Source: a virus
Direction: 5' to 3' (one strand)
Virus record (IMG/VR): IMGVR_UViG_3300042446_000499
Span: 1 to 64,000 of that record
DNA: 64,000 nt
Shown piece by piece: positions 32,093 through 63,356 of the stretch; position 1 is the first letter of the stretch; each line of letters opens with the position of its first letter. Made by a program: the position numbers and the translations under genes. The notes below the pieces were generated by a model. The model saw nothing but the letters and a program-made list of their open reading frames with translations. It did not search any database and had not been told where the DNA came from.

Positions 32093-32908
32093 ATGGCGCA
32101 TTACGGAATCATTGGAAGCGGAAAATGTGGAGAGAACATCATTGAAGATGGTCTTTCCGAAATAGGTGTGGAGAATAACGTATTTCTCGTTTACCCACGC
32201 AAGGGAGCAACTAGTTCCGAAGACCGTGTGTATGACTTCATGATTGATAATGAAGCAGAGTACATTGCCTATGTTAAGAGCAATGCTCCACAGGCTCTTG
32301 TGGATAACGCCTCAAAGGTTTTTGATGTCACTGGTGGTGATGCATGGTTAGAAATACTCACTACGTTGAAGAGCAAAAAGGGAACACTCCTTGTCCTTTG
32401 GGATGTTGACCATGAAGAAAACCTTATGAACTTTGTGTTTAAAGCCCATGATATGGGTATCCCTGTTCAAGAGTTGAGCAATGGTTTGGTCCCTATCAAT
32501 GTGGAAAGCGCTTCTGAAGAGCCTGCTATAGAGACTGAAATTGTTGAGATTGAACCGTTCTCTGAAGCCGAGATGCGGTCTATGAGTATTGGTGTCCTTC
32601 GTAAAGCCGCCACAGCACGTGGTGTAGAAGGTGTAGGAGCATATTCCAAGGACGAACTTGTTGAACGTTTGATTGACAAGAAAACACACGTAGAAAATAT
32701 TGAGGAGCCTGAAGTGGCAACAACTGGAATCAACCCAACAACGACTATTAATTACAGCGTGTCAGTACCTACTCAGGAACGTCCACAAATGGTGGCTCCT
32801 GATGGCGACTGCATGGTTACCGTAGTAATGCCTAATGGAACTGTTATCAGCACCCCAGCAACAATAGAAGAAGTGCGTGTCCTATTAGGACTTAGTGGAG
32901 GCCTTTAA
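32093..32908 (+). CDS. Rossmann-like protein with SAP/Rho-N-like motif
   Basis: Residues 1-140 of 271 begin YGIIGSGKCGENIIEDGL and alternate strands and helices (VFLVYPRKGAT, GTLLVLWDVDHEENL), suggesting a Rossmann-like fold. Residues about 157-200 read FSEAEMRSMSIGVLRKAA then SKDELVERLI. This is the helix-extended-loop-helix pattern of SAP or Rho-N nucleic-acid-binding modules. The final 60 residues include MVAPDGDCMVTVVMPNG. No family is recognised with certainty, and DNA binding is inferred. Its 3' end overlaps the convergent Dps gene by 24 bases. Confidence 0.5.
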   Translation: MAHYGIIGSGKCGENIIEDGLSEIGVENNVFLVYPRKGATSSEDRVYDFMIDNEAEYIAYVKSNAPQALVDNASKVFDVTGGDAWLEILTTLKSKKGTLLVLWDVDHEENLMNFVFKAHDMGIPVQELSNGLVPINVESASEEPAIETEIVEIEPFSEAEMRSMSIGVLRKAATARGVEGVGAYSKDELVERLIDKKTHVENIEEPEVATTGINPTTTINYSVSVPTQERPQMVAPDGDCMVTVVMPNGTVISTPATIEEVRVLLGLSGGL

Positions 32909-33322
32909 CTGCCAACGCCACTTCTTATGCATGTCATCACGTTCTGCTAAGAAGTTCATAATGCCTTGCTCGTTTGCTTTGTTGGCTGCTTCTTGAGCCT
33001 TTGCAATTGATTCAAGGATTCCGTCATTAAGACGCAGTAACTCTTTTGCCATTGCTTTTGGTTCAGGGTTAACATCCTTTGCTTCAATGGTGCGAAGGTC
33101 ACTGAACTTGCTCAAAGTGTAGGGAGCGTACTCATCCATCTTACGGATGTCTTCTGCAATAGGGTCAATGCTGGAGTACACATCTTCATAGATTTCCGCA
33201 AACAATGCGTGGTACTGAGAGAAGTCTTGACCTTCTACGTTCCAATGAAAACCATGTGCAGCAAAATACATTGTTACTGCATCAGATAATACTGTCTTGA
33301 GAGAGTTAGTTAGTGCACTCAC
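32885..33322 (-). CDS. dps: Dps-like miniferritin
   Basis: GTG 33322 is chosen because it overlaps the previous stop (GTGA) and has GGAG 5 bases upstream; a longer start at 33343 exists. The 145-residue helical protein has all four Dps ferroxidase ligands in exact spacing: H26 (GFHWNVEG), H38 (YHALF), D53 and E57 (DPIAED). Dps proteins form 12-subunit cages that oxidise and store iron, and many bind DNA. In a phage it could protect DNA from peroxide or change nucleoid state. It ends a four-gene minus-strand operon. Confidence 0.85.
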   Translation of the reverse strand: MSALTNSLKTVLSDAVTMYFAAHGFHWNVEGQDFSQYHALFAEIYEDVYSSIDPIAEDIRKMDEYAPYTLSKFSDLRTIEAKDVNPEPKAMAKELLRLNDGILESIAKAQEAANKANEQGIMNFLAERDDMHKKWRWQLKASTKS

Positions 33323-33585
33323 CATTTCTCCTTGTTTGCCCAATAAGCGGCGCTCATTTTGCCTTTAGCAATGTTCTTTGCATGACGGTCTTTGAACGCT
33401 TTATTACGAGCAGAACCATCAGGGGAACCCGATACACCTTGTTGACCAAAACGAATAGTTTTAATCTGGTCACCTTCTTTGGCAACAACAATGTGTGATT
33501 TAGTTGGATGGTCAGGCGTTGCTTTTGGTTTGTTAAAACCAGAAACTCCTGCACGTTCTAATCGTGGGTCTTTTTTGGAAGGCAT
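33319..33585 (-). CDS. Small conserved-type protein (DUF6321-like)
   Basis: The 88-residue basic protein reads GVSGFNKPKATPDHP, KSHIVVAKEGDQIKTIRFG, QQGVSGSP, then KDRHAKNIAKGKMSAAYWA and NKEKW. A similar series (FNKPK-TP-HP-KSH..VA..G, IRFGQQG, AYWAN) occurs in small phage proteins, which I recall as DUF6321; this assignment is from memory. Function unknown. It overlaps the Dps gene by 4 bases. Confidence 0.55.
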   Translation of the reverse strand: MPSKKDPRLERAGVSGFNKPKATPDHPTKSHIVVAKEGDQIKTIRFGQQGVSGSPDGSARNKAFKDRHAKNIAKGKMSAAYWANKEKW

Positions 33586-34053: not shown

Positions 34054-34527
34054 ATGGCAGACGGACCTTTTATTCAATTCCCCAAATGGCTTAGAGAGTA
34101 TCTAAGGGGGGACGCCACCACCACGGATGTATTGCTGGAATTGCTTGGGTACATGGACGGAAAGACCCAAAAGTTGACGACTTCTTATGGGCATATTGCT
34201 GAACGCACTGGATATCACCGCACGACAGTCATCAAGTCTGTGAACAAATTGGTGGAACTTGGGGTGCTGGTAAAGCAGAACCGAAGCAAGAATGGGCGCT
34301 CATTGACCAACGAATTTTACGTCAATTTCAATAACCCAAACTACCTCACAGTAGGGGTAGTGTCAGAACTACCCTCCCCATTAGGGGTAGTCGGGGGACT
34401 ACTGGGTGGTAGTCCTGGGGCTACCCCCGAGGGTAGTCGGGGCGCTACCCAATTAAGAATAAAGAACAAGAATAAAAAGAACAAGAAGGAAAATTTGGGA
34501 AAGATAGACCCAAGGTTGGTGTCATGA
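34054..34527 (+). CDS. Winged-helix replication initiator candidate
   Basis: ATG 34054 follows AAGGAG, and earlier in-frame ATGs lie in the divergent gap. The 157-residue protein has a DNA-binding domain at residues 20-95: TTDVLLELLGYMDGKT, YGHIAERTGYHRTTVIKSVN, KLVELGVLVKQ and a wing with NEFYVNF. This resembles helix-turn-helix initiators such as lambda O-type and HTH_36 proteins. Residues 100-135 are encoded by nine alternating GGTAGT/ACTACC elements and are low in complexity. The next genes include a helicase loader. The tail KIDPRLVS recurs in the next protein. Confidence 0.65.
   Translation: MADGPFIQFPKWLREYLRGDATTTDVLLELLGYMDGKTQKLTTSYGHIAERTGYHRTTVIKSVNKLVELGVLVKQNRSKNGRSLTNEFYVNFNNPNYLTVGVVSELPSPLGVVGGLLGGSPGATPEGSRGATQLRIKNKNKKNKKENLGKIDPRLVS
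34340..34450. repeat. Nine alternating inverted GGTAGT elements (possible origin iterons)
   Basis: Within the 3' end of the initiator gene the core GGTAGT or its complement ACTACC/CTACCC appears at 34340, 34355, 34368, 34386, 34397, 34408, 34421, 34432 and 34445 (approximate starts). The orientation alternates strictly. One copy (34397) is degenerate as GACTAC. Adjacent pairs form stems, for example GGGTAGT/ACTACCC around 34355-34374 and CTACCC-CCGA-GGGTAG at 34421-34436. The 55 bases that follow (34451-34505) are A-rich and could be the unwinding element. The plan resembles the lambda origin inside gene O. Confidence 0.6.
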
Positions 34528-34943
34528 TGTCACGACAGCAAGATGATTGGGGAATGGCATTTGGTTCCGACAAAGATGTTTACACTCCCCCAGTAAAAAA
34601 GAAACCCAAACGAAAAGATTCCACAGCATCTTTGGTTTACGATTTTCGTGACCAGTTGATGATGGACACCAGTAACCTGATGAACTCCCAAGTGAATGGT
34701 CCAGCCATGATGAAAGCGTTCCGCACCATCTTGGATACTGGACGTTCCTATGATGACATCCGAGCAATGATTAACCAGTTCCACAAAGATATTGCTATCA
34801 AACCATTGACCGATGGCATACCAGCATGGAAGGCTTTCATTGGTCGCCTTGATTCCTTGGCTAAAAAGGTTGGCACCACCGAAGATGTACCGAAATATGA
34901 CGGACCTAAGATTGACCCACGATTGATGAGTAATGATGACTGA
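34524..34943 (+). CDS. Replication-module protein sharing a C-terminal motif with the initiator
   Basis: The 139-residue protein has a basic disordered start (VKKKPKRKDSTAS) and a helical core (DFRDQLMMDTSNLMNSQ, YDDIRAMINQFHKDI, WKAFIGRLDSLAKK). Near the end it has KIDPRLMS, almost identical to the last eight residues of the previous protein (KIDPRLVS). Between an initiator and a loader ATPase, a DnaT- or adaptor-like role is plausible. The common tail may dock one partner. Family not recognised. Confidence 0.5.
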   Translation: MMSRQQDDWGMAFGSDKDVYTPPVKKKPKRKDSTASLVYDFRDQLMMDTSNLMNSQVNGPAMMKAFRTILDTGRSYDDIRAMINQFHKDIAIKPLTDGIPAWKAFIGRLDSLAKKVGTTEDVPKYDGPKIDPRLMSNDD

Positions 34944-35583
34944 ATGGCATAGCAACAAGTATTGGCAAAACCGCTCTAAAGAAGAGCGTTTACGGAACCT
35001 GCGGATTCCAGCCAGATACCTTGGAAAAGACTTAAACACTTATGACAGTGAAGCAGGAGACAGTGAGGCTTTTAATGCCATTAACCACTGGTGTTCCAAA
35101 GCCACAGACAACCTCACAGAAGGCATGGGAATGGTCCTGTACGGTCCCACAGGCGTTGGAAAGACACATCTAGCCCAAGGGGTGCTTGTGAATGTTGTAG
35201 GCTCCCATACACGCTCAGGAATCTTTGTTACCTCTGACCGTTACGTTGACATGGTTTACGATGAAATGCGTAATGATGGTGAATTGCCTGAACCGTATTC
35301 AGACCCGTTTCTGATGAAGTACATGAGACGAACCTTTGACTTGGTTGTCCTAGATGGTTTGGGAGCAGAGAGGGCAACAACAGAATTTGCTCGTAACGCA
35401 TTGATTTCATTAGTTGACAATCGTTATGAAGAAAAGTTGACAACAGTTGTTACAACTTCTTTGAGTCCTAATGAGTTAAGCCGAACCTACGGAAAGCGTG
35501 TGTTGTCAATCTTTCAAGAGAGTTGCTATTTCATCAACGTTGAGGGACCTGACTACCGAACGGTCTTTAACGATGCAAAGTAA
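34933..35583 (+). CDS. DnaC-like helicase loader (AAA+ ATPase)
   Basis: The 216-residue protein has Walker A GPTGVGKTHLAQ (residues 71-82), Walker B FDLVVLDGLGAE, a sensor-like TTVVTTSLSPNE and YGKRVLSIFQE with a likely arginine finger. This is the DnaC/IstB pattern. It would load the DnaB-like helicase encoded at 35986 onto the origin. The N-terminus contains RIPARYLGKDLNTYD, typical for loader proteins. Confidence 0.82.
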   Translation: MMTEWHSNKYWQNRSKEERLRNLRIPARYLGKDLNTYDSEAGDSEAFNAINHWCSKATDNLTEGMGMVLYGPTGVGKTHLAQGVLVNVVGSHTRSGIFVTSDRYVDMVYDEMRNDGELPEPYSDPFLMKYMRRTFDLVVLDGLGAERATTEFARNALISLVDNRYEEKLTTVVTTSLSPNELSRTYGKRVLSIFQESCYFINVEGPDYRTVFNDAK

Positions 35584-35998
35584 TGACATTGGAAACTTTA
35601 ACGACATAGGTCAAGGGGTTCTGTTTGAAGGTCTTCTTGCTTCTCCACCTGAGCGCCGCTTCTTTCAAAAAGCAGGTTCCGATTGGGATAAGGAATTATC
35701 TAAATGGAAATCTAATGAACTTCCTTTAAAAGCACTTGTTGATTATTCTGACCGACTTGGTATTGACACAGAGGTTTATACATTCCTTGGTCAAGATGCA
35801 GTAGACGCCATTGACCGTTGGCTTGGTCGCAAAGGCATTTCTCTTCCTGTGTATTCGTACAACAGTGTTGAAGAACTTTCCTATGACTTGCGCTTCAAGC
35901 GTTCAGTGCGTACTATCTACGTTCCCGAGCAAGAACAAGCCGCCATCATTGGTCTTCGTGCTACGGTAGCAGACTCTAAGAAAGCATGGTCCATCTAG
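35573..35998 (+). CDS. Unknown replication-operon protein
   Basis: ATG 35573 overlaps the loader stop by 11 bases. The 141-residue protein looks folded and alpha/beta: GVLFEGLLASPPERRFF, VDYSDRLGIDTEVYTFLG, DAVDAIDRWLGRKGI, then VRTIYVPEQEQAAIIG. The last pattern, with a strand and a polar loop, resembles small phosphatase-like folds, but no catalytic motif is clear. It lies between loader and helicase genes. Confidence 0.5.
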   Translation: MQSNDIGNFNDIGQGVLFEGLLASPPERRFFQKAGSDWDKELSKWKSNELPLKALVDYSDRLGIDTEVYTFLGQDAVDAIDRWLGRKGISLPVYSYNSVEELSYDLRFKRSVRTIYVPEQEQAAIIGLRATVADSKKAWSI

Positions 35999-37248
35999 TG
36001 GCTAACTCAGAACACCTCCTCATTAGCAAGGTTATTCAATCAGGAGATATTAGCCCAATCATTAACGCAGGTCTTAGGTCTGACCACTTCTCAGGCGAGA
36101 CACAGAAAATGTGGATGTGGATTTCAAGTTACTGGAGAGAATACGGAACAGTTCCTACTGACCGTGCATTCCATCAAGAGTTTGGTGATGTAACACTTTC
36201 TGATGCAACGATGGAACCGTTCCCTGCACTTATTGACGAACTGTTTCATTCATTTAAACGGCAACGCCTAATTGAAACCATCAGCACAGTAATGCCTGCG
36301 CTGAACAACAACTTAGTTGATGAAGCCTTTTCTGAATTAGCCGCAGGGTTGCAACGAGCCTCTACAGAGACCGCACGTCTTCGTGATGTTGACATCATCA
36401 CTAACTGGGAATCCCGTATCAGTCGTTACGAAGAAATGCGTAGCATGCCCAATGCTTTGCGAGGTATTCCAACAGGGTTCTTAGGTCTTGACCGAATTAC
36501 AGCAGGACTACGCCCACAGCAGTTGATTACATTTGTTGGCGAAGCAAAGAAGGGTAAGTCAATGATGAGCCTTATCATGGCAAATGCCGCACACGTCCAT
36601 GGCATCAGTCCTTTGTTTGTTTCTTTTGAAATGAGTATTGAAGAGCAAGAGGCTCGTTATGACGCACTTATCTCCAAGGTGTCACACACACGTATTATCC
36701 GTGGTGACATTACTAAACGTGAGATGGAGAAAATTGAAAAGGCTTTGCGTATTCGCAAGAACATGCATCCATTCCACATGACTGAGGACTCTTCATCATT
36801 GACAACTATTAGTGCATTGGCTGGAAAGATTCAACAGTACCGTCCTGGCATCTTGTTTGTAGATGGTGTGTACATGATGGACGATGAGAACGGCGAACCT
36901 AAGAACAGCCCACAAGCCCTTACCAACATCACCCGTTCTCTCAAGCGGCTTGCTCAGAGGTTTGACATCCCAATCGTAGGAACTACTCAAGTGCTATCTT
37001 CAAAGTTAAACAACAAGAAGTCACGTGCTATCACGGCAGACTCAATTGGTTATTCATCTTCTTTTGCACAGGACTCAGACCTAGTGCTTGGCGTAGAGTC
37101 AGACCCTGATATTGACAACCAATCAATCATCCGAGTAGTTATTGCACGTACAGCACCCAAAGGTGAGGTTCGCATTAAGTGGGACTGGGAGAACATGGAT
37201 TTTACGGAGGTAGACGAAAGTGGCAATGAAGACAACTGGTACTACTGA
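35986..37248 (+). CDS. dnaB: DnaB-like replicative helicase
   Basis: The 420-residue protein has an N-terminal helical domain and a RecA-like motor with Walker A FVGEAKKGKSMM (G185-S192), FVSFEMSIEEQEARYDAL, and Walker B ILFVDGVYMM (D293). Motif H4 follows as IPIVGTTQVLSSK, and a final DLVLGVESD region completes it. The ring helicase unwinds the fork and recruits primase. ATG 35986 overlaps its neighbour; GTG 35998 is an alternative with no ribosome site. Confidence 0.88.
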   Translation: MVHLVANSEHLLISKVIQSGDISPIINAGLRSDHFSGETQKMWMWISSYWREYGTVPTDRAFHQEFGDVTLSDATMEPFPALIDELFHSFKRQRLIETISTVMPALNNNLVDEAFSELAAGLQRASTETARLRDVDIITNWESRISRYEEMRSMPNALRGIPTGFLGLDRITAGLRPQQLITFVGEAKKGKSMMSLIMANAAHVHGISPLFVSFEMSIEEQEARYDALISKVSHTRIIRGDITKREMEKIEKALRIRKNMHPFHMTEDSSSLTTISALAGKIQQYRPGILFVDGVYMMDDENGEPKNSPQALTNITRSLKRLAQRFDIPIVGTTQVLSSKLNNKKSRAITADSIGYSSSFAQDSDLVLGVESDPDIDNQSIIRVVIARTAPKGEVRIKWDWENMDFTEVDESGNEDNWYY

Positions 37249-38137
37249 TATTCAACATGTTCTTGTTGATTTAGGTGTTGAGGTAACTCGTGCTGGAGAA
37301 AGAGAAATCTCTGGTCGTTGCCCCGTACACCTAAGCCGCACAGGGCATGTAGACCATTCACCTTCGTGGTCAATGAATGCTGAGACTGGTTTATGGATTT
37401 GCTATTCGTGTGGTGCTCGTGGAACACTTGTAGGTTTGATTTCTGAATTAACGGGAGACGAGACATCTTTAATTGATGTTCATTCATTTCTGATTAACTC
37501 AAGTCTTGGCAGGATTAATCGTGAAGACATCCCTGAACCTGAACCCGAGATTGATTGGATTTCATACAGTCGTTTTGACGTTGTACCAACGTCTTATTTG
37601 TACAACAGGAACTTAGATGCATCTGTTGCACGTTCCTATGGTATCCGATGGGATACATCAAACAAAGCATGGGTTATTCCTATTGTGTCCCCTTTGGGCC
37701 AACTTATGGGTTGGCAGTCTAAAAAGCCTGACTGGGTTCGCAACTACCCAATTGGTATCAAGAAGAGCCACACTTTGTTTGGTATTGAAAAGTTCTTAAA
37801 CAAACCAGCAGTACTCGTAGAGTCACCTTTAGATGTTATTCGTTTAGCATCTATTACAACAGGGGTACAAGGATTAGCAACTTTTGGTTCATACGTCAGC
37901 ACAGAACAACTTAGTTTGCTTAACTCCGTTGCATCTAAAGTAATTGTGGCAATGGATAATGACGAGGCTGGTTTAAAGGCTAGCAAAATGCTATTTAAAA
38001 CAATGCCCCGATTTGATGATGGTGTTTTATGGTTAAACTATAAGAACACAAAAGCAAAAGACATTGGTGACATGACAGACGAAGAAATCTATGACGCTCT
38101 AAGCACAGCCACTGCAATCCCTGGGTGGGTGCTATGA
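37220..38137 (+). CDS. dnaG: DnaG-type primase
   Basis: The 305-residue protein starts at GTG 37220 behind GGAGG. A CHC2-type zinc finger has C34, H37, C61 and C64 (GRCPVHL, WICYSCGARG). The TOPRIM core follows with AVLVESPLDVIRL (E201) and VIVAMDNDEAG (D246, D248). It would make RNA primers for the polymerase at 41157. It is shorter than bacterial DnaG, lacking the helicase-binding C-terminal domain, as in many phages. Confidence 0.88.
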   Translation: MAMKTTGTTDIQHVLVDLGVEVTRAGEREISGRCPVHLSRTGHVDHSPSWSMNAETGLWICYSCGARGTLVGLISELTGDETSLIDVHSFLINSSLGRINREDIPEPEPEIDWISYSRFDVVPTSYLYNRNLDASVARSYGIRWDTSNKAWVIPIVSPLGQLMGWQSKKPDWVRNYPIGIKKSHTLFGIEKFLNKPAVLVESPLDVIRLASITTGVQGLATFGSYVSTEQLSLLNSVASKVIVAMDNDEAGLKASKMLFKTMPRFDDGVLWLNYKNTKAKDIGDMTDEEIYDALSTATAIPGWVL

Positions 38138-39681
38138 CCTTTACAGGAACTTTGTACCCTTTTCAACAAGAGGCAAGCGAACGGATGGTAGAACGAGGGC
38201 AAATGCTGCTTGCTATGGTCATGGGTGCTGGTAAGACACCAACAACCCTGTCAACCATTGAAGCACTTATTGAAGATAATGAAATTAGCAGAGTATGTGT
38301 TGTAGTTCCCTCCAGCCTTAAATACCAGTGGCTTCGTGAAATTGGTAAGTTCACTACATCTAAAGCAATTGTTATTGATGGGACTCCAAAGCAACGTGAA
38401 AAACTATGGCGTTTGTCTATTGGTTGCCAGTACGTCATTGTTAATCCAGAGAGTTTGACAAAAGACATAAGCCAGTGGGAAGCCATGCGATTTAACGCAA
38501 TGGTTATTGATGAAGCCACAATCATTAAATCATTTACTTCTAAACGTTCTAAGATGTTAAAGAAGTTAGGTGCTAAATGCCACTACCGTTTTGCCCTTAC
38601 AGGACAACCTATTGAGAATAAACCTGAAGAGTTGTTTTCAATTATGCAATTTGTAGATTCTTCAGTGCTTGGCAAATTTGATTCTTTTGACAGAACATTT
38701 ATTGTGCGTGACCACTTTGGAAAACCAACACGATATAGAAACCTTAGACAACTAAATGATTCAATGTCAGAAGCAATGGTTCGTAAAACAAGAGATGACA
38801 TTAAAGACCAACTCCCTGAAGTAATTACACAAGTTATCCCTGTACAGTTTGACAATACAATTGCAGGTGTATACGAACGTATTTCTACGGATTTGTTAGA
38901 GCAAATTCAAAAAGCAATTACAAGCAACGGCAGGTCTTTTGACTTGTGGGCGCACTACCACGGAGGTCAAGGAAATGAAGCGCAAGGTCAAATTATGTCT
39001 AGGCTTACTGTATTACGTATGCTCTGCGATAATCCTAGGCTGGTGGTGGAATCAGCCAAAGCGTTCAATGACCCTACCCAAAACACTGAAGGAAGCGCAT
39101 ACGCTGCCAAGATACTTGCGGAGGGTTGGCTCCCCGAAACTTACAAGACACCCAAACTAGATACCGTTGTTGAATACATTAAGGATGTTTTAAATGAAGA
39201 CCCAACTAACAAAGTGGTACTTTTCTCGTTCTTTAAGAAGAACCTACGGATTATCCAGGAAGCAACTAAGGGACTTACGCAAAGCGTACTCTTCATGGGT
39301 GGTATGGGTGCAGACCAGAGAGATGTTGCAAAGCAAAAGTTCGCAACCGAGGATGGCGTTCGGCTCTTTTTATCCTCTGATGCAGGAGGTTACGGGGTGG
39401 ACTTACCGCAGGCCAATTACCTTATCTCTTACGATTTACCTTGGTCTGCTGGAAAACTGGACCAAAGAGAAGCCCGAATTATCCGTCTGTCGTCAACACA
39501 TCCGCACGTTACGGTTGTATCTTTCGTCATGAAAGGCTCTATTGAGGAGCGCCAATACGAAATGCTTCAACAAAAACGAGAAATAAACAAGGCGTTCATT
39601 GACAAGGGGTATGACAGTCAGGGTAAATTTGAACTGAACTTGGGCACCCTGTCTGAGTTCCTAAGCCACTCAGAGGTATAA
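38134..39681 (+). CDS. SNF2-family DNA helicase/ATPase
   Basis: ATG 38134 overlaps the primase stop (ATGA). The 515-residue protein begins with a Q-like YPFQQEASERM and Walker A MVMGAGKTPTT (31-35). It then has VVVPSSLKYQWLREI, a DEAT box (126-129), FALTGQPIENKPEELFSI, VVLFSFFKKNLRII, and motif V/VI SSDAGGYGVDLPQANYLI with LDQREARIIRLSS. Phage SNF2 proteins may clear or remodel forks and act in recombination. A second SNF2-type helicase is encoded at 61473-63356. Confidence 0.85.
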   Translation: MTFTGTLYPFQQEASERMVERGQMLLAMVMGAGKTPTTLSTIEALIEDNEISRVCVVVPSSLKYQWLREIGKFTTSKAIVIDGTPKQREKLWRLSIGCQYVIVNPESLTKDISQWEAMRFNAMVIDEATIIKSFTSKRSKMLKKLGAKCHYRFALTGQPIENKPEELFSIMQFVDSSVLGKFDSFDRTFIVRDHFGKPTRYRNLRQLNDSMSEAMVRKTRDDIKDQLPEVITQVIPVQFDNTIAGVYERISTDLLEQIQKAITSNGRSFDLWAHYHGGQGNEAQGQIMSRLTVLRMLCDNPRLVVESAKAFNDPTQNTEGSAYAAKILAEGWLPETYKTPKLDTVVEYIKDVLNEDPTNKVVLFSFFKKNLRIIQEATKGLTQSVLFMGGMGADQRDVAKQKFATEDGVRLFLSSDAGGYGVDLPQANYLISYDLPWSAGKLDQREARIIRLSSTHPHVTVVSFVMKGSIEERQYEMLQQKREINKAFIDKGYDSQGKFELNLGTLSEFLSHSEV

Positions 39682-61455: not shown

Positions 61456-61481
61456 ATGGGGTAGGGGGGGGGTCACCCCAT
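61456..61481. repeat. G9-loop hairpin, copy 1 of a pair flanking the SNF2 gene
   Basis: ATGGGGT (61456-61462) pairs with ACCCCAT (61475-61481) around A, nine Gs and TC. It holds the stop codon (TGA, 61475-61473) of the minus-strand helicase. The same element with a G8 loop is at 63386-63413, and both share a preceding GTGGTGT. Terminator, promoter-proximal element or recombination site are all possible. Confidence 0.6.
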
Positions 61482-63356
61482 CATCTCCGAAAGTAGAAGG
61501 GCTGTCACACTACCTGCCTCAGCGTTCATGTCCTCTCCCCAACCATCAAGGCAAGCAGAGATAGTTTCTTGTTTAGCATTGCAGATTGCCCACATACGAG
61601 CGTCAATGGTTGGTGACTCAGTGTCAATGGCTGTCAGCCACCAAGCGACTACGGCATTCTTGACGCCATAGCGCCATGCCCTGTCCTCTGCCTGTGCACC
61701 AACGCTGGGCGACCATGGTATTTCAACCATGACCACGTGGCTGGCGACTTGAAGGTTGAGTCCTACGCTTGATGCATCGTATTGTCCAATGAACAACCGA
61801 GCCTCTCCACTGGTGAACTTATTGACAGCGTTGTTCTTTGTTTCAGCAGTCATGCCACCAGCAACTACGACAACTCCATCGTTCTTGAAGTGCTCCTTGA
61901 TGGCGTTGATTACATTGGTGTGGTACGCAAATGCAATGACTTGCTCTCCTGCCTCCAGCAATGAACGGATGTGAGCACATGCTGGCTCTACCTTTGCTTC
62001 ACCAAGCAACTGCCTAAGTTTATTTATCTCTGTAATGACGGGAGCCTTGCTCGCTGCCATGTACGCATCATTGCCATAGTTCTCCATCACCCAAGCAAGG
62101 AAATCTTCCTCAGCCTTGCGATACTTGTTCATAGATGCCTCAGACAACTCAACGTCTAACTGGGCACGTCTTTTGGGGGGAAGGTCTTCCAGTACATCCA
62201 CCTTGCGTGTACGTGTGTAGACGGTGGAGCGCAGTATCTCATTTAGTTCTGATGTGTTAGAGGCTCCACTGGTGTTAGGAAACCCATTGACCATCTTGTA
62301 ATCACAGTAACGGGTAAGGAACTGTCTCTTAGTACCGAACACTGGGTCAAGCCTGCCGATAATCTTCAACGGAGAAATAAACTCAGACGGACGGTTAGGA
62401 ATGATGGTTCCCGACAGCAACACGCAGTAACCATCCTTGGGAACCTGTGTAGCAATACGGGACAAGCCTTTAGTGCGATTGCTGTTCTCAGTCTTGAAAC
62501 GGTGAGCCTCATCAACGACAAGGCTGGTGAACTTGCCAGCAAGGACATTCTGCCAAGCCTCAATGATGGAGTCGGGCACTAACAGCACGTCACATTTTGG
62601 CAACTTGTATGGCTTACGACCCTTGATGGATGACACCTTGAGCCAAGGAGCAAACCTCTTTAGTTCTGCTTTCCATTGGTACACGAGGTTTGGTGGTACG
62701 GATACCATCACCTTGTGACCTTCCTTGACAGCCATATGCGCTACAGCAATGCCGATGGGCGTTTTACCAAGACCCATGTCCTGACATACCAACGTACGGC
62801 GTGTACGGCGAACGAACTCAATGGCTGACTTCTGATAACCAAGGAGAGGTAGTTGTAGGTCAAAATCAAGGTCAAAATCCTTGGCATTTGACAAAGTAAA
62901 TAAACCTCCGTCAGGGATAATCGGTGGCACCACTTTGTCTAACGTTTGTACGAACTCATCAAGTGCAGAACGCAACGCTGAAGAATACGTAACGTCAGGT
63001 ACGACAGTTACGGCAGAGCACTTATCAACGGCATGAAATGTACGCCACGCACCCTTTAGAAAGACCTTGTGCCCTGCACCAGCAAGGACTACTTCATCAC
63101 AGAGATGGCATTTACCTTTGGCAGTGTTCACAATAATGCGTGTGACTTCTTCAGGGATGTGCGCTAGCGCAGGTGTGCGCTCTACTGGCAGATATGCCAA
63201 GTAATCAAGCAATGAGGATGCTGACTTGAATGTCAGTTTCTCTAATTCCATTGCGCTAATCCAGTTGTCAATGCACCCAACCATTTCTAGTGGGCTGGTA
63301 CGTTGTTCTAACGCATCATGTATGTCACGTTGTTGCCTTGGTGTAATTCCGTTCAT
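61473..63356 (-). CDS. SNF2/SMARCAL1-like helicase with N-terminal zinc site
   Basis: The 627-residue protein has a possible zinc site CHLC (C83, C86) with FHAVDKC (H108, C113). Walker A CQDMGLGKTPIG (193-199) follows, then VSVPPNLVYQWKAELKRF, a DEAH box (SLVVDEAHRFK), LLSGTIIPNRPSE, IGQYDASSVGLNLQVAS and motif VI AEDRAWRYG. This is the SNF2 pattern with a SMARCAL1-like arrangement. It probably anneals or remodels DNA at forks. Both gene ends carry G-loop hairpins. Confidence 0.85.
   Translation of the reverse strand: MNGITPRQQRDIHDALEQRTSPLEMVGCIDNWISAMELEKLTFKSASSLLDYLAYLPVERTPALAHIPEEVTRIIVNTAKGKCHLCDEVVLAGAGHKVFLKGAWRTFHAVDKCSAVTVVPDVTYSSALRSALDEFVQTLDKVVPPIIPDGGLFTLSNAKDFDLDFDLQLPLLGYQKSAIEFVRRTRRTLVCQDMGLGKTPIGIAVAHMAVKEGHKVMVSVPPNLVYQWKAELKRFAPWLKVSSIKGRKPYKLPKCDVLLVPDSIIEAWQNVLAGKFTSLVVDEAHRFKTENSNRTKGLSRIATQVPKDGYCVLLSGTIIPNRPSEFISPLKIIGRLDPVFGTKRQFLTRYCDYKMVNGFPNTSGASNTSELNEILRSTVYTRTRKVDVLEDLPPKRRAQLDVELSEASMNKYRKAEEDFLAWVMENYGNDAYMAASKAPVITEINKLRQLLGEAKVEPACAHIRSLLEAGEQVIAFAYHTNVINAIKEHFKNDGVVVVAGGMTAETKNNAVNKFTSGEARLFIGQYDASSVGLNLQVASHVVMVEIPWSPSVGAQAEDRAWRYGVKNAVVAWWLTAIDTESPTIDARMWAICNAKQETISACLDGWGEDMNAEAGSVTALLLSEMMG

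Follow-up and report, generated by a model that had tools for sequence, protein, structure and literature searches.

The question raised by this locus is whether a set of short repeats at the end of a winged-helix gene forms a replication origin inside the gene of its own initiator, as an earlier note on this DNA had proposed, and whether the strict alternation of these repeats represents a new design, as the same note suggested. The window analyzed here, a stretch of 64 kb, covers the first 64,000 bases of a virus record that is 72,488 bases long. The best explanation, to which we assign a probability of about 0.86, is a theta-type phage origin within its own initiator's gene, including the mechanism proposed below. 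This reading is favored because of the dyads themselves, the selection that acts on them, their presence in 29 homologous cassettes, the joint switches of site and protein, and the recurrence of the motif in unrelated initiator genes.

The repeats and the gene that carries them

The features of the gene and its array are as follows:

34054-34527, plus strand: winged-helix initiator gene, 157 aa, with the candidate origin in its last third (HTH_36, PHROG 270, AlphaFold2)
34216-34260, plus strand: turn residue H55 followed by the predicted recognition helix, residues 56-69 (AlphaFold2 helix; alignments)
34340-34345, minus strand: lone ACTACC half-site, outside the element, absent in relatives
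34356-34373, no strand assigned: dyad iteron 1, GGTAGTGTCAGAACTACC, kept in relatives
34386-34403, no strand assigned: dyad iteron 2, GGTAGTCGGGGGACTACT, kept in relatives
34408-34425, no strand assigned: dyad iteron 3, GGTAGTCCTGGGGCTACC, kept in relatives, in a reading frame that differs from that of units 1-2
34432-34449, no strand assigned: dyad iteron 4, GGTAGTCGGGGCGCTACC, kept in relatives
34450-34504, plus strand: A-rich tract, probable DNA-unwinding element, top 50-mer of the window for A and for purine

The protein encoded at 34054 belongs to the HTH_36 replication initiators, in line with the winged-helix gene claimed earlier: it matches Pfam HTH_36 at E 1.8e-8 (34.5 bits against a cut-off of 25) and PHROG 270, “replication initiation protein”, at E 1.1e-14. 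With E values of 1 or less, 14 Pfam families matched, and Phage_rep_O (PF04492) was not one of them. In the AlphaFold2 prediction, residues 11-90 form a winged helix and the tail is disordered from about residue 94 on, which implies that the array encodes mostly tail; the model is of moderate quality (mean pLDDT 58, domain mostly 65-87). When the initiator and the small protein encoded next to it were searched against annotated phages with tblastn, neither gave a match, and the origin is therefore not linked to any phage isolate.

Nine half-sites of the GGTAGT type occupy the last third of the gene, at its 3' end (34340-34449), and alternate strictly in orientation (-+-+-+-+-); six of the nine are exact (GGTAGT/ACTACC), the others carrying one mismatch each (ACTACT at 34398, GCTACC at 34420 and 34444). 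Alternation and number thus agree with the nine copies reported earlier, but the half-site at 34340 is not conserved in relatives, and the nine-copy reading was rejected. The best reading of the repeats is four dyads of 18 bp, GGTAGT-N6-RCTACC (34356, 34386, 34408, 34432), plus a lone ACTACC. Each unit is an inverted repeat, the spacing from dyad to dyad is 30, 22 and 24, and the gene ends about 80 bases past the last dyad. The GTAGT-N6-RCTAC cores, which start at 34357, 34387, 34409 and 34433, use eight of the nine half-sites, and the whole 72,488-base record holds no such dyads besides these four. By chance, about 0.17 dyads are expected in 64 kb under a first-order Markov null, which produced no cluster of more than one, and codon shuffles of the initiator gene (n = 1000) gave at most one dyad, compared to the four observed.

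Directly 3' of dyad 4 follows the A-rich DNA of the earlier description: of all 50-mers in the 64-kb window, the one richest in A (32/50), which is also the most purine-rich, lies within 34455-34504. This tract is a probable DNA-unwinding element. It contains two copies of AAGAATAA (34455-34462 and 34468-34475), a sequence that is kept in a distant clade with GTGTC half-sites (L117, L118) despite the different dyads found there, which suggests that it may be a specific single-strand binding element.

Homologous cassettes and unrelated initiator genes

Selection on the array was assessed in seven homologous initiator genes with 70-81% protein identity. At codons whose amino acid is unchanged, synonymous change occurs in 10% of comparisons within the array and in 46% in the rest of the gene, a suppression of about 4.5-fold, while amino-acid change in the array is at least as frequent as in the rest of the gene. 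Moreover, dyads 1 and 2 lie in one reading frame and dyads 3 and 4 in another, so that no single peptide repeat can explain them and the DNA, not the peptide, must be what is selected. Sequence and comparison together demonstrate that the dyads are selected as DNA and fixed in number and place. That the repeats merely result from a low-complexity protein linker made of Gly, Pro, Ser and Thr is hardly credible: the same DNA patterns do match collagen-like or Thr-rich genes (L021, L024, L042), but the two frames, the failure of codon shuffles to give such a dyad set, and the loss of synonymous variation while amino acids vary largely refute this explanation.

More distant cassettes, with loader identities as low as about 40%, were collected by searches with initiator and loader, and 29 initiator genes were examined; loader and small-protein genes were recognizable where the contig allowed. 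The earlier note had asked whether the repeats persist as the protein drifts, and they do: every cassette keeps its dyads in the same place in the initiator gene, four in 27 of the 29 and five in the other two, with N6 centers, a spacing of mostly 22-30 bp, the same gene order, and an A-rich tail starting with CCAA directly after the last dyad (29/29). The half-site, in contrast to this fixed layout, varies. It is uniform across all units within one genome and switches as a set between clades, from GTAGY in the clade of the window to GTGTC (L117, L118, L144-L150, L153, L154-L172), GTGWC (L160-L171) and GTATC (L146).

The recognition helix changes along with the half-site. It reads HRTT (H55/T57) in the GTAGY clade, [SDN][RK]RT in most GTGTC and GTGWC genes (i.e., mostly S, D or N at position 55 and R57), and SRIT (S55/I57) in the GTATC gene, L146. 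The initiator and loader trees both put L146 within the GTGTC group, whereas the window clade stands as a group apart, which implies at least two separate half-site switches; both main switches coincide with a change of the recognition helix, each at residue 57. However, L153 has SRST, with S57 instead of R57, and keeps GTGTC, so the half-site is not determined by residue 57 alone. That half-site and helix change together suggests that the encoded protein is what binds the array, and this covariation is the best evidence for the predicted binding. Whether initiator and origin, as parts of the same gene, change specificity together, with a constant layout and a half-site that tracks residues 55 and 57, is a tentative proposition, and we consider it somewhat less probable than its negation. 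If true, it would provide a readable specificity rule for winged-helix phage initiators, and origin sites could be predicted from protein sequence. The homologous series, with its constant layout and varying half-site, makes the change in initiator/origin specificity directly testable.

These switches also bear on the possibility that the alternating repeats act in the mRNA, by folding into hairpins that would regulate how the loader operon is translated or shield the transcript. Each dyad could fold into a hairpin of -8 to -10.5 kcal/mol (-63 kcal/mol for the whole block), and the overlapping stop and start codons (ATGA, 34524) suggest translational coupling. However, two-sided pair changes number 3 compared to 2.7 in shuffles, and covariation is no better on the key counts. 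The arm letters are common to all units of a genome and switch together, as expected of a binding site, whereas independent hairpins need not do so. In the L160 clade, all arm pairs are GTGAC/GACAC, which places an A-A mismatch in the stem and yet maintains the same half-site pattern. Together with the recurrence of the motif in unrelated initiator genes, this makes a function as mRNA hairpins very improbable.

This recurrence emerged from scans that were blind to the protein. The pattern of two neighboring GGTAGY dyads matched 17 times in 2.9 million viral contigs and 12 times in 84,980 prokaryote genomes; beyond the window's own family and low-complexity genes, the in-gene matches include HTH_36 genes (L012, L013, L014/L036, L032) and a Phage_rep_O gene (L040). 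A looser three-dyad scan mostly returned collagen-like or Thr-rich repeat genes, which have no origin role and were discarded as low-complexity matches, and added one more Phage_rep_O gene (L067), so that six unrelated initiator genes, HTH_36 or Phage_rep_O, were recovered in total. By eye, a histidine stands at the place of H55 in L012, L013 and L014 and is missing in L032; the association of His with GTAGY, against eight other half-site groups that lack it, has a one-sided P of 0.007 in a comparison that was chosen after seeing the data. Alternating arrays with other letters occur in further initiator genes (L084, L088, L090, L182, L184, L213, L216, L225). However, a de novo array search at 60 HTH_36 loci found most of them without an array, so the presence of HTH_36 is not by itself predictive of an origin.

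A dyad array inside a winged-helix gene is thus shared by the window with L012, L013, L014/L036/L227, L032, L040, L067, L182, L184, L213, L216 and L225. Six of these HTH_36 or Phage_rep_O genes have GTAGY half-sites, as in the window, and several have others. Outside the winged-helix fold they are not homologous to the window initiator, and they are mostly longer, with a C-terminal part after the array, whereas the window initiator is short. The earlier proposal of an origin inside the initiator gene draws strong support from both the homologous cassettes and the unrelated initiator genes. The array thereby supplies a large group of uncultured phages with a candidate origin, and offers a route to finding origins from sequence, namely by searching for dyad arrays with low synonymous change inside winged-helix initiator genes.

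The scans also returned two kinds of array outside long reading frames. In L029 (1604-1690), L035, L038 and L039, which come from one Clostridiales assembly, 3-4 copies of the 22-nt palindrome CGGTAGCTAWWTGACTACCG were not considered further, as they resemble a repeat dispersed through the genome. The viral contig L064 carries four TGTAGTG-TWTTT-ACTACA dyads at 23-24 bp spacing (500-586), possibly an intergenic origin of the same kind.

Downstream genes and a proposed mechanism of initiation

The array is followed by a series of replication genes:

34524-34943, plus strand: small helical protein, 139 aa, no known family, between initiator and loader
34933-35583, plus strand: DnaC/IstB-like helicase loader (PF01695, E 3e-11; PHROG 50, E 2.1e-38)
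35986-37248, plus strand: DnaB-like replicative helicase (PF03796, E 2.6e-30; PHROG 19, E 5e-60)
37220-38137, plus strand: DnaG-type primase, zinc ribbon and Toprim (Pfam)

The loader is encoded two genes past the initiator, which agrees with the earlier description. Further downstream lie genes for an SNF2-type helicase (38125) and PolA (41157). SNF2/DEAD-type helicase-like genes occur twice in the window (38125-39681, from Pfam, and 61473-63356 on the minus strand, by eye), and a Dps/ferritin-like protein was recognized by eye on the minus strand at 32885-33343, between the structural and the replication genes.

The small 139-aa protein gave no Pfam or PHROG match of weight, and its predicted structure, which is of low confidence (mean pLDDT 66), found no match of weight in the PDB; chains of lambda P were listed weakly (E 3-5) and were not counted as evidence. 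As a guess, it might take over the role of the C-terminal part of lambda O. It ends in KIDPRLMSNDD, a tail that is common to the initiator; the shared tail may serve in docking to the loader or the helicase. Tails of the IDPRL type end the initiator at 34504-34518 and the small protein at 34911-34925, and endings of the form KIDPRL(M/V)S or IDPRLK were seen on initiator and small protein as well as in L004, L010, L011, L015, L017, L018, L118 and L119. More distant cassettes have looser tails, e.g., IDQRL, VDGRL and VDKRL.

We infer a course of events that runs from initiator binding through melting and helicase loading to an active origin. In this scheme, dimers of the winged-helix protein would bind the four dyads via their recognition helices, one dimer per dyad of 16-18 bp, and form an array whose members are separated by some two to three helical turns. 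The array would strain the adjacent A-rich tract until it opens, upon which the small protein and the DnaC-like loader could load the DnaB helicase of the phage onto the open strand, and primase and PolA would follow. The steps after initiator binding are proposed by analogy to lambda and other DnaB-loading systems.

Alternatively, the dyads could be operators only, at which the winged-helix protein represses or paces transcription of the downstream replication genes, with the origin elsewhere. Winged-helix folds are common in repressors, the best Foldseek matches to the model include MarR and CodY proteins, and the array lies upstream of the loader gene. However, it sits inside the end of the gene, past the start codon, and no sigma-70-like promoter was found near the array, a result that counts against the origin reading as well; four phased dyads followed by a conserved A-rich tract have the anatomy of an origin, and the family matches are to replication initiators. 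We regard purely operator function as unlikely, although less so than a role in the mRNA; autoregulation alongside origin function could occur. GC skew, which the earlier note had suggested as a check, has no minimum of weight at the array in this record (block-permutation P 0.85) and a minimum about 13 kb from the array in a 94.5-kb relative, and is read as uninformative here. End repeats of the record were looked for and not found.

Comparison with known origins

The intragenic origin proposed here closely resembles that of phage lambda, oriLambda, which lies within the initiator gene O, upstream of the loader gene P. The lambda iterons (J02459) are four units of 18 bp at 39034, 39054, 39078 and 39101, spaced by 20, 24 and 23, compared to 30, 22 and 24 for the units of about 18 bp in the window, and are likewise followed by an AT-rich tract. 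While most plasmid iterons are direct repeats (PMC5043065; PMC7466680), those of lambda are inverted repeats bound by O dimers (PMC5043065). Alternating half-sites are therefore the lambda design, and they occur in unrelated initiator genes as well; the idea of a new design has to be corrected, as strict alternation is not unusual.

The window shares with lambda the main elements of this architecture: repeats inside the initiator gene, for which binding is suggested by the covariation; iterons that are each an inverted repeat, as expected of the predicted dimer site; a putative unwinding tract beside them, on the downstream side; and a helicase loader gene downstream, which is of a family other than that of lambda P, namely a DnaC-type ATPase. 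Further differences are the initiator family (HTH_36 with no Phage_rep_O match, versus Phage_rep_O in lambda), the half-site (GTAGY versus TCCCTC), one extra small gene in the window, and the position of the iterons, which in lambda lie mid-gene with a C-terminal part after them, whereas in the window the gene is short, has them at its 3' end and encodes no C-terminal domain past them.

Phage SPP1 provides a second case, as one of its origins, oriL, is located inside gene 38 for the origin-binding protein, with gp39 as loader and gp40 as helicase (PMC6316719). SPP1 and the window have in common a small protein gene next to the initiator, a DnaB-type helicase after it, and repeats with an AT-rich region (PMC6316719). 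However, SPP1 is described as having direct repeats, two origins (oriL and oriR) and no DnaC-like ATPase (PMC6316719), whereas the window has inverted dyads at one place in the record.

For RepA_N initiators, the resemblance concerns the principle of covariation. The RepA protein of PLE satellites has a DNA-binding domain that varies in step with the origin and the semi-palindromic iterons of that origin, and modules were swapped on more than one occasion (PMC8263062). The window shares with this system a winged-helix initiator and iterons that change together with the initiator's DNA-binding domain, but the PLE origin is intergenic, not intragenic, and there is no shared second domain. The window initiator does not group with the RepA_N plasmid initiators: no chain of RepA_N proteins of known structure appeared among the profile matches to its winged helix, and the Foldseek matches to a Rep-DNA complex (5kbj) and an initiator (4pt7) are weak and at fold level. 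Covariation of initiator and origin is thus known in principle; the present family contributes an example in which both reside in one gene and several half-sites are sampled.
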